DNA of 64,000 nucleotides from Nitrospiraceae bacterium (GTDB lineage Bacteria > Nitrospirota > Nitrospiria > Nitrospirales > Nitrospiraceae): assembly GCA_035623075.1 (NCBI GenBank), contig DASPUC010000049.1, positions 62,001 through 126,000 on the forward strand, given 5' to 3'. Positions 39,999 to 46,844 of the stretch are shown one piece after another. The position numbers and the translations under genes are program-made. The notes under the pieces are model-generated. The model ran no database searches. It was not told the origin of the DNA and saw only the letters and a list, made by a program, of their open reading frames with translations. Position 1 is the stretch's first letter; each line of letters begins with the position of its first letter.

Positions 39999-40027
39999 CG
40001 ACTGCCATGCTCTCTGTGGAGGAGTCC

Positions 40028-40789
40028 GTGACGCAGGAACAGCGTCAGCCGTTGGCGCCCGCCCGCACGATCTCGACTTGGACCGGATCGGCACGTGAAC
40101 AGGCCGTGCAACGGATGTTCACCGCCATTGCGCGAGTCTACGACCTGAACAACACACTCCTCAGCTTCGGACTCCACCACCGATGGAAAAAAATCACAGC
40201 GTCGTATGTACCGATTGCCACGGCTGGACGGGCCCTCGACGTCGGATCCGGCACGGCGGATCTCGCGTTTTTGGTTGAACCTCGGATGGGCAAGGAGGGA
40301 TTGGTCATCGCCTCCGATTTGAACCATGCCATGCTCGTGGAAGGATTGAAAAAAATCGCCGCGCGCAAACTAACGAAGCGGATTACCTGTCTCGAGGCGA
40401 ATGCAGAACAGTTGGGGTTTCCCGACCAGACGTTCGATGTCGTAACGACGGGCTTCTGCATGCGAAATGTCGGAAACCTGATGCAGGCATTCACCGAGAT
40501 CCGACGAGTCTTGAAGCCGGGCGGCCGGTTCGTCTGTCTGGAATTTTCCCAACCGGTCCGGAAATGGCTGCTCAATCTCTATGACTGGTACTCTTTCCGA
40601 CTCTTGCCCTGGATCGGCACGAAAGTCGCGCATGACACAACTGGAGTCTATGAATACTTGCCGGCATCGATTCGAACTTTTCCAGATCAGGAGCGACTGT
40701 GCCAGCTTCTTCGGGAGGCCGGCTTCCAGCAAGTCGAATATCGCAATTTGACCGGCGGGATCGTGGCGATTCATGTGGCAGTGAAGTAG
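40028..40789 (+). CDS. ubiE: Demethylmenaquinone/ubiquinone methyltransferase UbiE (MenG)
   Basis: SAM-dependent C-methyltransferase for the last step of menaquinone synthesis; 253 aa from GTG 40028. Family motifs: [34 protein letters not shown] (SAM loop), [14 protein letters not shown] and [13 protein letters not shown], with the late [15 protein letters not shown]. The start is chosen because GGAGG lies 5 nt upstream; an in-frame ATG at 40007 lacks such a site. In a menaquinone-using organism MenG is the likely activity. It is divergent from uvrA. Its TAG stop (40787-40789) starts the next repeat element. Confidence 0.93.
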
Positions 40790-40871: not shown

Positions 40872-42500
40872 ATGAATTCTATTCTATATATTTTCCTCCC
40901 CTGCAAGAAGGTCTACCCGATCGGGGTAACCTATCTGGCCGACTTCGTCCACCGGCGCAAGCCGGAGGTCCGTCAGCGCATCGTTGATCTTTCGTTGTTC
41001 CATGACTCGCAACGATTGCAGGCGGTTCGCGATGCGGCCGCTCAATTCAAGCCGGATCTCGTCTGTTTCTCTTGGCGAGACATTCAGATTTTCTCGCCTC
41101 ACGAGGGGGACTCATCCCTAGAGCACGCCTTCAACTTTTACTTCGCCAGCAACCCGCTCAAACGTGTCGTCGCATCGTTCGAGGGATTGAAACAACTGTA
41201 TCGCTACTACAGCCACATTCGAGCCAATCTCTCTTACCCCTGGTTGATCGCGAAGGAATTTCCGAAGGCACAGATCATGATCGGCGGTGGAGCCTTCACG
41301 GCCTTTGCCGACCAGTTGATTGAAAAGCTCCCGGAAGGCACCATCGGCATTCTCGGCGAGGGCGAGGATGCGATCCTCAAGGTTCTCGATGGCCAATCGT
41401 TGGATGGCGAGCGTTATATCGTGCGCGAGGGCAAAACAATTCGCAAAGGGCAACAGGCTGCCCCCGCGCTTCTGGATGCCCTCACTGTTGACCTTCCATA
41501 CCTGACGTCGATTTTCCCCCAATACCGTCACTACACGGACGAATCGATCGGGGTGCAAACCAAACGCGGCTGCCCCTACGACTGTGCCTTCTGCCTCTAT
41601 CCCTATATCGAAGGAAAACGGGTACGGTACCGCCCGCCCGCGATGGTCGTGAAAGATATTTCCCAACACTACCATCAGTGGGGTGCTCGTCGCTTTTGGT
41701 TCACCGACGCGCAGTTCATCACAGGGAAAGAATCGTATCCGCAGTGCACGGAAATCCTGGAGCGGATTCTCGCCGAAAAGCTGGAGATCGAATGGTCCGG
41801 CTACATCCGCACGTCGTTGATTACTCCGGAGCTGGCGAAGCTCATGGTTCGGTCCGGTGTCGGTGATTTGGAAGTCGCGATCACGTCGGGATCTCAAGAA
41901 GTACTGAACAATCTGCACATGGGTTTCAAACTTGAGCGACTGTACGACGGCTGCCGCTACCTCGCTGAAGCGGGGTTCAAGGGAAAAGTGATCCTGAACT
42001 ATTCGCTGAACTCGCCGAAAGAAACCGAGGACAGCCTGCTGCAAAGCGTCGAAGCTTATAAAACCGTGGCGTCGATCCTCGGTGAAGACCGGGTGTTTCC
42101 CTTGATGTTCTTCCTCGGCATCCAACCCAATACGGATCTCGAACACCGGTTGTTGGAGGAAGGCTATCTATCGGCCGGGTATAATCCCTTGATGCTCACC
42201 CCAAACAGCATTCGAAAGCTTCTCTACAATCCGGCTCCGCTCAACAAGATCATCGCCAAGGCCTGTCTGTTGGCCTGGGAACGGAAGCGAGGCAGCCGGG
42301 ACCCGCGCGCCTGGTCCGGTTCCTTGTCACAGACAGCTGAAAGGTCCACGAACTACGCCGATGAAAGTTTGCTGAAAGGCATCGATGGAAACTCCGGACG
42401 CGACGCGCTTCTGTCCCTCGAAGAAATTATCCGGTCGCGTAAATCTTCATCTCCATCAATGGCTTCACGAGAAAATCCTGCCGCGAGTTCCGCCCGTTAG
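40872..42500 (+). CDS. Radical SAM protein with N-terminal B12-binding-like domain
   Basis: Radical SAM enzyme of 542 aa, function unknown. The [4Fe-4S]/SAM motif is CPYDCAFC (Cys234, Cys238, Cys241) within QTKRGCPYDCAFCLYPYIEG. The first 200 residues resemble the Rossmann domain of cobalamin-binding radical SAM proteins (IMIGGGAFTAFADQLIEKL and GILGEGEDAILKVL). The cobalamin-ligating DxHxxG motif is not seen, so B12 binding is doubtful. Residues 470-542 are polar, Ser-rich and likely disordered. The ATG lies 5 nt after a repeat element. It is upstream of the PCP_red cluster but separated from it by 158 nt. Confidence 0.85.
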   Translation: MNSILYIFLPCKKVYPIGVTYLADFVHRRKPEVRQRIVDLSLFHDSQRLQAVRDAAAQFKPDLVCFSWRDIQIFSPHEGDSSLEHAFNFYFASNPLKRVVASFEGLKQLYRYYSHIRANLSYPWLIAKEFPKAQIMIGGGAFTAFADQLIEKLPEGTIGILGEGEDAILKVLDGQSLDGERYIVREGKTIRKGQQAAPALLDALTVDLPYLTSIFPQYRHYTDESIGVQTKRGCPYDCAFCLYPYIEGKRVRYRPPAMVVKDISQHYHQWGARRFWFTDAQFITGKESYPQCTEILERILAEKLEIEWSGYIRTSLITPELAKLMVRSGVGDLEVAITSGSQEVLNNLHMGFKLERLYDGCRYLAEAGFKGKVILNYSLNSPKETEDSLLQSVEAYKTVASILGEDRVFPLMFFLGIQPNTDLEHRLLEEGYLSAGYNPLMLTPNSIRKLLYNPAPLNKIIAKACLLAWERKRGSRDPRAWSGSLSQTAERSTNYADESLLKGIDGNSGRDALLSLEEIIRSRKSSSPSMASRENPAASSAR

Positions 42501-42658: not shown

Positions 42659-44755
42659 ATGTATAAGACGATCTACGTACCGGTCGACAATTCCGACCAT
42701 TCCAACACCGCGGTGGATGTCGGTGTTCATCTCGCCAAAACCTTCGGCTCCAAAATCGTGGGCAGTCACGTCTATGCCGCCAAGATGCACGACAAACGCT
42801 TCAAACAGATGGAGGCGGGCCTGCCGGAGGAATATCATGACGAGAAAGAATTGGACCGGCAGCGGCAGATCCACGACTCGTTGATTACTCGTGGTCTTCA
42901 GATTATCACCGATTCCTACCTGGACTACGTCGACAAGAAATGTAACGAGGCCAACCTGCCGGTCGAACGCCGCTCGCTCGAAGGACGTAACTGGAAGGTG
43001 CTGGCCGAAGATATCAATACCAACGCCTACGACCTCGTCATCATGGGGGCCCTGGGAGTCGGGGCAGTGAAAGATAGCGTCATCGGCAGCAACACGGAGC
43101 GCGTCGTTCGTCGCGTCCGCAACTCCGATATGCTGATCATTAAGAACACGCAGCCGATGACCGATGGCAAGATTGTCGTGGCCGTCGACGGCAGCCCCTA
43201 TTCCTTCGGTGGGCTGATGACCGGCCTTGCGCTCGGAAAGGCCTTTAATATGCCGGTCGAAGCCATTTCTGCCTTCGATCCTTACTTCCACTATGCAGCC
43301 TTCCACAGCATTTCCGGCGTCTTGAACGAGGAAGCGGGCAAGGTGTTCCGTTTCAAAGAACAGGAAAAGCTTCATGAGGAAATCATCGATAGCGGGCTCG
43401 CGAAGATCTACCAATCACATCTCGATATTTCCCGCGAGATCGCCCAAGCCGAGCAGAGCGACATCAAGACCACGTTACTCGACGGCAAGGCCTTCGAAAA
43501 GATCATCCAGTACGTCCGCAAGGATGTTCCCACCCTTTTGATCGTCGGCCGCATCGGCGTTCACAGCGATGAGGATATGGATATCGGCAGCAACACGGAG
43601 AATCTTCTTCGAAGCGCTCCCTGCAACGTTCTTGTCTCGAATCGGAAATACGTGCCGCCGATCGATACCCAAGCCGAGTACACGATCGCCTGGACAGAAG
43701 AAGCCTTGCGCCGGATGGAAAAGATTCCCGTGTTCGCGCGCGGCGTTGCCAAGACGGCAATTCACCGGTATGCCATCGAAAAGGGTCATACGATCATCAG
43801 TAATACGGTGGTCGATGCCGCCGTCGGCCATATCCTGCCGAAAGGCGCGATGGAGGCGATGCGTGCGCTGGGCGGCAGTCTTGACGCGGCCGGAATCGAT
43901 CGCGACAAGATGCAAGCGGACGATTCCGTGGCGAAGGACCTGATGGGGTCGACGCTCAGCAGCATGATGACGCAAGTGGTCGAAGAAAAGCCCAAAACCT
44001 CGGAAGCCACGCAGGCCTATCTCGATCGCATGAGCCAAAATTACTTCGTCTGCGACGGCTGCGGGTACATCGGGAAGGGTGAAACGCCGGTCAAATGTCC
44101 CGTCTGCGGAGCCGACGGCGCACGGTTCAAACAAGTCGACAAAAGCATCTTCGAAGCGGCTGCCAAGGCGGAGGGCGAGATCGAAACCGACGTGGCGTAT
44201 GACGATATCCCGATGCAATGGACAAAGGACGCCAAAGAATCGATTCGAGCCGTCCCGGCCGGCTTCCAACGTCGCCGCGCCAAGGCAAAGATTGAGAAGA
44301 GCGCTCGTAAGCTGGGGATGACAACGATCACGCTCGAATATGCCGCGCCGATGATCAAGGAAGCGGCGGACGAAGACTACCAGCCGATTTTCGCGAACAA
44401 GGGCACCGGTACGTCTGCAGAAGCGGAAGCCAAGCTCACCGGCATAAACGGAAACGGGACCAACGGGAACGGGGCCCACGGAAATGGCAACGGAAACGGA
44501 GTTGCTGAAGCACCGGCGCCCTATACCTGGACCGCCGACGCGCAGGCAAGGCTCGAACGGGCGCCGGAAGGATTCATGCGTGACTGTACGCGCGCTTTGA
44601 TTCAGAAGCACGCGGATAAACTCGGCACGACTCATATCACGCTCGAAGTGGCAAACGAAGGCATCGAACAGGCGAAGGGCTACATGGCCGAAGCCATGAA
44701 GACCGGTAACCTGAAGGATATGATCGCCAACCTCACCGGAAAGGGAAGTGCCTAG
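42659..44755 (+). CDS. Universal stress protein-PCP_red-rubredoxin fusion
   Basis: Six-part fusion of 698 aa, no membrane segments. Usp domain 1 (residues 1-165) has YVPVDNSDHS and the late nucleotide loop MGALGVG-x9-GSNTERV. Usp domain 2 (168-330) has VVAVDGSPYS and GRIGVHS-x6-GSNTENL. Three copies of a roughly 45-residue module, W-x2-EA-x2-R-M-x-K-I-P-x2-R then A-x4-G-x2-I, lie at 343-390, 520-565 and 622-668. These match the PCP_red domain of the BchB/ChlB C-terminus. A rubredoxin-like zinc or iron ribbon (CDGCG at 465-469, CPVC at 480-483) sits between copies 1 and 2. A Gly/Asn-rich linker (594-616) precedes copy 3. It is followed by a radical SAM gene that also ends in PCP_red. GGAGG lies upstream of the ATG. 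Function unknown. Confidence 0.88.
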   Translation: MYKTIYVPVDNSDHSNTAVDVGVHLAKTFGSKIVGSHVYAAKMHDKRFKQMEAGLPEEYHDEKELDRQRQIHDSLITRGLQIITDSYLDYVDKKCNEANLPVERRSLEGRNWKVLAEDINTNAYDLVIMGALGVGAVKDSVIGSNTERVVRRVRNSDMLIIKNTQPMTDGKIVVAVDGSPYSFGGLMTGLALGKAFNMPVEAISAFDPYFHYAAFHSISGVLNEEAGKVFRFKEQEKLHEEIIDSGLAKIYQSHLDISREIAQAEQSDIKTTLLDGKAFEKIIQYVRKDVPTLLIVGRIGVHSDEDMDIGSNTENLLRSAPCNVLVSNRKYVPPIDTQAEYTIAWTEEALRRMEKIPVFARGVAKTAIHRYAIEKGHTIISNTVVDAAVGHILPKGAMEAMRALGGSLDAAGIDRDKMQADDSVAKDLMGSTLSSMMTQVVEEKPKTSEATQAYLDRMSQNYFVCDGCGYIGKGETPVKCPVCGADGARFKQVDKSIFEAAAKAEGEIETDVAYDDIPMQWTKDAKESIRAVPAGFQRRRAKAKIEKSARKLGMTTITLEYAAPMIKEAADEDYQPIFANKGTGTSAEAEAKLTGINGNGTNGNGAHGNGNGNGVAEAPAPYTWTADAQARLERAPEGFMRDCTRALIQKHADKLGTTHITLEVANEGIEQAKGYMAEAMKTGNLKDMIANLTGKGSA

Positions 44756-44864: not shown

Positions 44865-46235
44865 ATGGGCAAGTCACTTCCCATCCTCAACTCTCCGATG
44901 CTGCCCGGACCCCAGCGGGTCTCAGCACTCAGCACTGACTACTCAGCCCTGGTTCAAGACGGGCGCACCGTCGACGATTTCAAGCCTTACCTCGTCGCCC
45001 TCAATCTGACGAAACGCTGCAATCTCAAGTGCGACCATTGCTATCTTGACGCCACCACAAAAGCCAGTGGTGGGAGCGACGAGCTGTCCACAGAAGAGTG
45101 TTTCCGTCTCATTGATCAGATCGCAGAGGTGAACAAGGGCTGCCTGTTGGTGATCACGGGCGGTGAGCCTTTGGTTCGTCCCGACATCCTCGACATCGCG
45201 CGCCACGCCGTGAAGCTCGGCTTCATGGTTGTATTCGGCACCAATGGCATGCTCATCAATGACAAGATGGCCCGGACGCTGGTTGAGATCGGTGTCATGG
45301 GAGTCGGCATCAGCATCGATTCGCTCGATCCATCGAAGCACAACAAGTTCCGTGGGGTGCCTGGCGCCTGGGAGGCGGCCGTCGCCGGCATCGAAGCGTC
45401 TAAACGAAACGGCTTGCAGTTCCAAGTGCACTTTAGCGCGCAACCGATGAACTATCAGGAGTTGCCGGCGGTGATCGATTGGGCGCATGGGCTCGGGGCC
45501 CGTGTCCTGAACGTCTTCTTCATGGTCTGTACGGGTCGAGGTGAAGAGCTGACGGACATCTCGCCGGCTCAGTACGAGGAAGTGCTCGGCTACCTGGTGA
45601 ACTGCCAAGACCGGTACAAGGACATGCTCGTTCGTGCTCGCTGCGCTCCTCATTTCAAGCGACTGGCCTACGAAAAGGATCCGAATTCCCCGATTACAAA
45701 GGCGACCGGGTACATGGGCGGGGGTTGCTTGGCCGGTACGAACTACGCGCGCGTGACGCCGAACGGCGAATTAACGCCCTGTCCCTACATGCCGCTCTCC
45801 GCCGGCAATATTCGAGAGAATAGCTTCATCGATCTCTGGGAGAAGTCGGATATTTTCAATTCGTTCCGCTACCCGCAGCTCAAGGGTAAGTGCGGCGATT
45901 GCGAGTACAGCGACATTTGCGGCGGCTGCCGGGCTCGCCCCTACGTCGATCACGGCGACTGGCTGGATGAAGATCAGTGGTGCCTATACACTCCGAAGGG
46001 CGGTGAGAAGATCAAAGTGTCGTTCAATACGCCGGAGGAGGCCGAAATCCCATGGGATGACGCCTCGCAGTTCCGCCTCAGCCGCATCCCGTACTTCCTG
46101 CGCGCCATGGTGAAAAAAGGTGTTGAGCGGCATGCGCGCGAGCATGGCATCCCATTGATCACCATCGACTTGATGGAAGAACTCCGCAAGAAGCGTTTCG
46201 GAAACGAAACTCCGGTCTTCAAGTTCGAGCGTTAA
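44865..46235 (+). CDS. Radical SAM/SPASM protein with C-terminal PCP_red domain (AhbD/NirJ-like)
   Basis: Radical SAM enzyme of 456 aa. The core motif is CNLKCDHC (Cys52, Cys56, Cys59), followed by the GGEP loop (TGGEPLVRPDI). A SPASM auxiliary-cluster region has CLAGTNYARVTPNGELTPC and CGDCEYSDICGGCRARP. The fold and spacing resemble AhbD and NirJ, which act on haem and haem d1 precursors. Residues 395-440 are a PCP_red module (IPWDDASQFRLSRIPYFLR), as in the upstream fusion. Residues about 19-27 are encoded by an extra heptamer arm (44918-44945), so the N-terminus has been built or altered by the repeat. ATG 44865 follows the repeat element by 7 nt. The stop (46233-46235) starts the next element. 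A tetrapyrrole substrate is inference. Confidence 0.88.
   Translation: MGKSLPILNSPMLPGPQRVSALSTDYSALVQDGRTVDDFKPYLVALNLTKRCNLKCDHCYLDATTKASGGSDELSTEECFRLIDQIAEVNKGCLLVITGGEPLVRPDILDIARHAVKLGFMVVFGTNGMLINDKMARTLVEIGVMGVGISIDSLDPSKHNKFRGVPGAWEAAVAGIEASKRNGLQFQVHFSAQPMNYQELPAVIDWAHGLGARVLNVFFMVCTGRGEELTDISPAQYEEVLGYLVNCQDRYKDMLVRARCAPHFKRLAYEKDPNSPITKATGYMGGGCLAGTNYARVTPNGELTPCPYMPLSAGNIRENSFIDLWEKSDIFNSFRYPQLKGKCGDCEYSDICGGCRARPYVDHGDWLDEDQWCLYTPKGGEKIKVSFNTPEEAEIPWDDASQFRLSRIPYFLRAMVKKGVERHAREHGIPLITIDLMEELRKKRFGNETPVFKFER
44918..44945. repeat. Extra heptamer arm inside the radical SAM gene (GCACTCA type)
   Basis: GGTCTCA, GCACTCA, GCACTGA and CTACTCA, the same unit as the right arm at 44830-44857, occur in frame as codons for residues about 19-27 of the radical SAM protein. 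Confidence 0.75.
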
Positions 46236-46337: not shown

Positions 46338-46844
46338 ATGGACGCCTTACAAAGCATCGTTACCGACCTCAACACCCTGATCCCGATCGTCAACCATTGG
46401 TTTCATCTTTTGTCCGCCGTTATCTGGATCGGCGGGCTGGCCTTCCTGGTGATGGCCGTGACGCCGGGTCTGCAAAAGGCCGTGGCCAAGGAGCACATCA
46501 AGCCGATTACGGATGTGTTCTATCAGCATTACAAGAAAGTGGCCGGTATCCTGCTGGTCATTCTTTTGTTTACCGGGGGTATCAATCTCCATTACGTGAA
46601 CCAGGTCCTTACCTCACAGACCGGGAGTGGCGTCCAAAATCACGCCAAATATTTGATCGTCTTTTTCATCAAGCTGTCTCTGGTTCTCTGCCTGTTGACG
46701 CTTTTTCTCTATACGGTCATTTTCAAACCCAACGAGGATGAGGAGGAGGAAACATATGAAGTGATCCCCTACCAACGGGCTGCGCTCTGGATCGGATTTT
46801 TTATTATCCTCTGTGCCGCTGCGATGAAACACCTCCATCAATAG
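46338..46844 (+). CDS. CopD-like membrane protein
   Basis: Inner-membrane protein of 168 aa with four predicted helices. HLLSAVIWIGGLAFLVMAV in the first helix is typical of CopD/DUF-type cytochrome-like membrane proteins. Histidines in or near helix ends (NHWFH, HYKKVAG, NLHYVN, NHAKY, KHLHQ) could ligate haem or metal. A charged acidic loop (EDEEEET) lies before the last helix. It is linked to the PCP_red radical SAM gene by a repeat element only, so it is probably co-transcribed with it. Confidence 0.75.
   Translation: MDALQSIVTDLNTLIPIVNHWFHLLSAVIWIGGLAFLVMAVTPGLQKAVAKEHIKPITDVFYQHYKKVAGILLVILLFTGGINLHYVNQVLTSQTGSGVQNHAKYLIVFFIKLSLVLCLLTLFLYTVIFKPNEDEEEETYEVIPYQRAALWIGFFIILCAAAMKHLHQ

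Follow-up and report, generated by a model that had tools for sequence, protein, structure and literature searches.

A tandem universal stress protein with three PCP_red domains, paired with an AhbD/NirJ2-like radical SAM enzyme in Nitrospira: a possible scaffold or carrier for haem-type cofactors

Introduction

Tandem universal stress proteins (Usps) such as TTHA0350, UspE and Rv2623 carry two Usp domains in one chain, and the PCP_red domain (PF08369) is found in BchB/ChlB of the dark protochlorophyllide reductase. AhbD, NirJ2 and NirJ are radical SAM enzymes with a SPASM domain, and a review states, in the portion drawn on here, that AhbD can replace ChdC in the coproporphyrin route (PMC7242693). 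The OR-N type CydAA' is described, in the excerpt used, as the presumed terminal oxidase of Nitrospirales (PMC12342949), and, according to an excerpt of PMC6606698, Nitrospira, Nitrospina and anammox bacteria have gene clusters that combine a bd-like oxidase with cytochromes c and an alternative gamma subunit of nitrite oxidoreductase. According to excerpts of two of these sources, the composition and function of the Nitrospira bd-like terminal oxidases await experimental confirmation (PMC12342949, PMC10839748).

The gene described here lies in a window of 64,000 nucleotides of Nitrospiraceae DNA. Its product resembles tandem Usps in having two Usp domains per chain, both with the G-2x-G-9x-G(S) motif, and differs from them by long helical inserts with conserved histidines, by C-terminal PCP_red domains and a ribbon, and by the pairing of its gene with a radical SAM gene. 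It shares PCP_red with BchB/ChlB, according to both Pfam and sequence matches to 2kru, 2l09 and BchB, but it has no nitrogenase-like domain (TIGR01278 gives 65 bits against a cut-off of 490, over the PCP_red part only), presents three copies of PCP_red and occurs in an organism without photosynthesis. The partner enzyme is like AhbD, NirJ2 and NirJ in its radical SAM and SPASM parts, its invariant cysteines and its best profile matches, and unlike them in forming its own clade, in carrying a PCP_red tail and in having a Usp partner. Finally, the association of cytochrome c, periplasmic cytochrome b and a bd-like subunit published for OR-N type CydAA' clusters recurs around the pairs of the deep branches, whereas the excerpted accounts of these clusters mention no maturation factor or PCP_red protein (PMC12342949, PMC10839748, PMC6606698, PMC9040806).

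Architecture of the Usp-PCP_red protein

The open reading frame starts with ATG, preceded by GGAGG, and encodes the following features:

42659..44755, plus strand: Usp-Usp-PCP_red-ribbon-PCP_red-PCP_red protein of 698 amino acids (ORF translation, hmmscan, comparison of 80 homologues)
42659..43153, plus strand: Usp domain 1, with the ATP-binding type motif G130-2x-G133-9x-G143-S144 and an insert with conserved His37, His44 and His72 (hmmscan, comparison with relatives)
43166..43642, plus strand: Usp domain 2, with G297-2x-G300-9x-G310-S311 and conserved His211, His239 and His302 (hmmscan, comparison with relatives)
43691..43822, plus strand: PCP_red copy 1, residues 345-388, 54.3 bits (hmmscan, genome-wide profile search, phmmer)
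44045..44131, plus strand: rubrerythrin/rubredoxin-like ribbon, CxxC...CxxC, residues 463-491 (hmmscan, homologue comparison)
44219..44338, plus strand: PCP_red copy 2, residues 521-560, 40.9 bits (genome-wide profile search)
44528..44653, plus strand: PCP_red copy 3, residues 624-665, 36.5 bits (genome-wide profile search)

Searching with hmmscan matched Usp (PF00582) over two stretches (E 4e-33, 115 bits), PCP_red over three (E 6e-32, the best being residues 345-388) and the ribbon as RUBY_RBDX (PF21349, 28 bits against a cut-off of 26.5). Each of the three PCP_red copies, taken singly, lies above the gathering cut-off of 32.5 bits, and copy 1 retrieves by sequence, with phmmer, the solved PCP_red structures 2l09 and 2kru together with BchB chains in the PDB. 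The same domain order had been read from motifs in a preliminary description, which assigned PCP_red to residues 343-390, 520-565 and 622-668; Pfam bears out the order, and the PF08369 search places the copies at the residues listed above. In all 80 Nitrospira homologues there are exactly three PCP_red matches per protein and the ribbon cysteines 465, 468, 480 and 483 are invariant, and conservation in this set amounts to 81-97% in the domains versus 50% in the linker 567-621. The architecture is real and under selection, and a chance match is excluded. Our literature searches, on PCP_red/PF08369 and on Usps combined with radical SAM enzymes of the haem type, found no paper that describes it, in agreement with the earlier remark that it had no described function.

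The G-2x-G-9x-G(S/T) motif of both Usp domains is kept in relatives, and would enable the tandem core to bind ATP. The histidines of the helical inserts are kept in relatives down to 33% identity, with His37, His72 and His302 invariant and His44, His211 and His239 nearly so. Structure prediction had been proposed in the preliminary description: the AlphaFold model of the whole protein (mean pLDDT 70.5) predicts three helices for each PCP_red, and its first half retrieved with Foldseek the tandem Usps Rv2623, UspE and ATP-bound TTHA0350, with E down to 9e-16. The placement of the domains is unreliable (pTM 0.50) and too uncertain between them for an interface to be read. The PCP_red copies have no conserved Cys or His in common, and a promoter scan gave nothing above shuffled sequences. 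Judging from its sequence, the ribbon could hold iron or equally zinc.

A conserved partner: the radical SAM/SPASM enzyme

Around the Usp-PCP_red gene, the following neighbours were compared:

44865..46235, plus strand: partner radical SAM/SPASM enzyme, nearest to NirJ2/AhbD, with a C-terminal PCP_red (hmmscan, NCBIfam profiles, alignment, tree)
46053..46187, plus strand: PCP_red of the partner enzyme, 52.7 bits (hmmscan, genome-wide profile search)
46338..46844, plus strand: membrane protein with distant similarity to CopD, third in the conserved gene run (profile searches, neighbourhood comparison)
40872..42500, plus strand: B12-binding radical SAM protein, upstream neighbour in 71 of 80 loci, nearest to slr0320 (445 bits against a cut-off of 775); a putative member of the system at most
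40007..40789, plus strand: MpqE methyl-plastoquinone methyltransferase, among the upstream neighbours in 67 of the 80 loci (413 bits, cut-off 335); likewise a putative member at most

The enzyme gene adjoins the Usp gene in 78 of the 80 Nitrospira loci. Of 24 loci over the phylum, 19 have a tandem Usp gene directly beside a PCP_red radical SAM gene and in the same orientation; two of the remaining five lie near contig ends. With the family of the source organism included, the pairing extends to 12 families. Enzymes without an adjacent Usp occur in families f7 and f8, from the class of the source organism, and in f29. In most relatives outside this class the ribbon is absent and the pairing is kept; deep-branch Usp proteins lack PCP_red yet still stand beside the enzyme, which there carries one to four PCP_red domains. 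Because the Usp of these branches keeps its place without PCP_red, the pairing probably preceded the fusion, and the distribution suggests that the system probably began as the Usp-enzyme pair, with PCP_red and then the ribbon added later on the Usp side.

The best NCBIfam matches of the enzyme are NirJ2 (TIGR04055, 325 bits) and AhbD (TIGR04545, 313 bits), both under their equivalog cut-offs of 500 bits, and peptide maturases reach about 145 bits or less. Its CxxxCxxC motif and SPASM cysteines are invariant among 37 relatives, and in the tree the PCP_red enzymes form a single clade set apart from the AhbD of haem operons, with an SH-aLRT support of 100 and some long branches. The closest solved folds are those of SuiB, PqqE and SkfB, which act on peptides, and no AhbD or NirJ structure is among the matches.

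Other PCP_red proteins

The preliminary description missed that PCP_red is also present on the downstream gene and further afield: a genome-wide profile search found 12 PCP_red domains in five proteins of the source genome, namely the Usp protein, the enzyme, a ribbon-PCP_redx2 protein, a PCP_redx4 protein and a PCP_redx2 protein. Its statement that no photosynthesis gene is present holds, no PCP_red match in the source genome being BchB, and a photosynthesis remnant was rejected on the same ground. It had also placed PCP_red near the substrate in the dark protochlorophyllide reductase, which is not supported by the pocket residues named in the excerpt available, Asp274 and Gly409-Leu410 (PMC4157233): they precede the PCP_red segment of BchB, located at about 467-512 by phmmer alignment. 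A search of plasmids for PCP_red returned one BchB and nothing else.

Some of these genes are found together in relatives. In G131, from the same class, about 9 kb contain the genes for an Mrp ATPase, a PCP_redx2 protein, a haem-oxygenase-like protein and a PCP_redx4 protein, as well as those of the enzyme and its Usp partner; the order in G119 is ATPase, PCP_redx2, haem-oxygenase-like protein, PCP_redx4. These clusters suggest that the PCP_red proteins, the ATPase, the enzyme and the Usp protein form one system.

Several side observations concern the same genes. The cluster Mrp ATPase, PCP_redx2, haem-oxygenase-like (CADD/TenA-like) and PCP_redx4 was located at L134 5866-9487 and L204 7629-10868. 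In the source genome, the ribbon-PCP_redx2 protein follows a gene for an Mrp/NUBPL-type P-loop ATPase (L014 6556-8281, C26), and this ATPase-PCP_red pairing was also seen in L139, L140, L141, L134 and L204. A protein consisting mostly of four PCP_red domains lies near the genes of an SppA-like peptidase and ribosomal protein S1 (L013 6460-7665, C26). A third region (L015 5195-10563, C30) contains in a row a BchU-like O-methyltransferase, whose sole strong NCBIfam match is BchU, under the cut-off, then a DUF420 protein, a PCP_redx2 protein, a membrane protein and a CydA-like subunit. Family f27 has small proteins with a single PCP_red whose genes adjoin one for a B12-binding radical SAM protein (L136 6874-8884, L137 5004-7000). 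In several families, a protein of about 215-250 amino acids, with a weak PNPOx match in some cases, comes after the PCP_red radical SAM gene, at L126, L130, L133, L189, L196, L197 and L199.

Links to haem, cytochromes and bd-like oxidases

In relatives, the neighbours of the pair point to haem. HemY adjoins the enzyme in f19 (304 bits against a cut-off of 97.85), and G008 has the HemY that follows the pair in addition to the one of its haem operon; in f17, HmuY comes after the enzyme. Cytochromes c or cytochrome c-EB_dh proteins surround the pair in f19, f28, f29, f32, f35, f37 and f38, and in f32 the pair is also close to a molybdopterin oxidoreductase and a NarJ-like chaperone. Among 20 loci, five have a divergent CydA-like gene in the stretch that was retrieved, where 0.16 would be expected by chance, in a test conceived after the loci had been seen.

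The co-occurrence analysis across genomes, also proposed earlier, was carried out as well: outside the class of the source organism, PCP_red is present in 21 of 21 genomes whose best CydA match is divergent, versus 30 of about 160 others (Fisher P 8e-14, counting genomes as independent and ignoring kinship), and contrasts inside families f15, f28, f29 and f35 agree with this association. Exceptions are f12, f20, G184 and G228, with PCP_red and no divergent (OR-N-type) CydA as best match. Within Nitrospira, no CydA gene was found near the Usp-enzyme pair, and no PCP_red beside CydA in seven Nitrospira-family loci, which hold another bd-like cluster than OR-N2, or in three f13 loci.

Possible functions

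We tentatively propose that the Usp-PCP_red protein is an ATP-binding scaffold or carrier dedicated to a radical SAM system that makes, modifies or delivers a haem-type cofactor for the OR-N bd-like oxidase and cytochrome c/EB_dh complexes, which seems to us quite possible though short of probable. The domains, the enzyme pairing and the genomic association with genes for CydA-like proteins, cytochromes and haem-related proteins are observed; from them we infer a physical complex, ATP binding, a tetrapyrrole ligand and the identity of the product. The tandem Usp core would bind ATP and dock the neighbouring AhbD/NirJ2-like enzyme. Both partners carry PCP_red, which would either handle a tetrapyrrole common to the two or keep them assembled around it. 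The ribbon, presumably added later, might supply or sense electrons. Together with the other PCP_red proteins, encoded beside the Mrp-type P-loop ATPase or near a bd-like oxidase gene, the pair would constitute one Nitrospirota system, whose product would be a haem-type cofactor for the divergent (OR-N) cytochrome bd-like oxidase and the cytochrome c/EB_dh complexes. The preliminary description had suggested a tetrapyrrole or Fe-S sensing or carrier protein; only a tetrapyrrole-linked role gains from our results, and by context, through the AhbD/NirJ-type neighbour with its own PCP_red and, in relatives, the nearby genes for HemY, HmuY, cytochromes and bd-like oxidases. Several points speak against the scaffold or carrier: the weakness of the model between domains, the lack of conserved Cys or His in PCP_red, whose tetrapyrrole binding is putative, the enzymes of f7, f8 and f29 without adjacent Usp, the distance of the Nitrospira pair from CydA, the other Nitrospira bd-like clusters without PCP_red, and the four exceptions with PCP_red and no OR-N-type CydA.

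The pair could instead be an oxygen-independent haem b synthase, converting Fe-coproporphyrin to haem b under conditions in which the H2O2-dependent ChdC fails, with the Usp as a low-oxygen helper. The similarity of the enzyme to AhbD and NirJ2 is consistent with this, and so is the source genome, which has HemE-HemH-HemY and a cytosolic ChdC-like protein, as in the coproporphyrin route; HemF and full HemN were not found in it. Its two chlorite-dismutase-family proteins are encoded at L157 1462-2193 and L158 1303-2100, one being ChdC-like and cytosolic and the other having an apparent signal peptide. A search of G119 (99% complete) for ferrochelatase, ChdC, HemN and AhbD found a ferrochelatase, no ChdC and no full HemN, with the PCP_red enzyme as the sole AhbD-like protein; in that genome, no other enzyme may be available for the final haem b step. 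However, the enzyme coexists with a canonical AhbD, devoid of PCP_red and placed in an AhbD-HemE-HemH-HemY operon, in G203, G111 and G266, with HemN in G008 and G049 (both f19) and G131, and with ChdC-family proteins in the source genome, G157 and G163; it also stays under the AhbD cut-off. Because of this coexistence and its clade separate from haem-operon AhbD, it is probably an additional enzyme and not the housekeeping haem b synthase; housekeeping synthesis as its sole role is less likely, and we retain the haem b synthase as a rather unlikely rival.

Other readings give the Usp-PCP_red protein a different part. As a UspA-type low-oxygen regulator, it would sense haem precursors or redox state through PCP_red and the ribbon; its tandem Usp fold with two ATP motifs would suit this role, and an excerpt of PMC8115632 reports four N. 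marina Usp proteins that rise at low O2 beside operons also rising. But hmmscan found no DNA-binding domain in the 698 residues and the tight pairing with one enzyme gene over 12 families fits an enzyme partner better, so we consider a regulator unlikely. In another reading, proteins or peptides would be the target of the radical SAM/SPASM enzyme, with the PCP_red/Usp protein as its substrate or substrate adaptor. This agrees with the peptide-acting proteins among the closest solved folds of the enzyme, and PCP_red might serve as a recognition domain; the lead of more than 150 bits of the haem enzyme profiles and the HemY, HmuY and cytochrome neighbours in relatives make it improbable. It is more improbable still that the protein serves mainly as an electron donor, with rubredoxin-type iron in the ribbon feeding the Fe-S clusters of the partner: the four invariant cysteines and the RUBY_RBDX match would fit, but in most relatives outside the class the ribbon is absent and the pairing is kept.

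Significance

Nitrospira are key nitrite oxidizers. On a broader and more doubtful view, an undescribed special-haem pathway may serve the terminal oxidase and cytochrome complexes of Nitrospirota, and perhaps those of further groups whose bd-like oxidases are of the OR-N kind. It would be made up of PCP_red proteins, the AhbD-like radical SAM enzyme, the tandem Usp carrier and the Mrp-type ATPase, and PCP_red would be a module for handling tetrapyrroles in general. A conserved PCP_red/radical SAM/Usp system tracking the bd-like oxidases would point to the origin of their cofactor and make it testable, and PCP_red, named for the tail of a chlorophyll enzyme, would gain a role outside photosynthesis.
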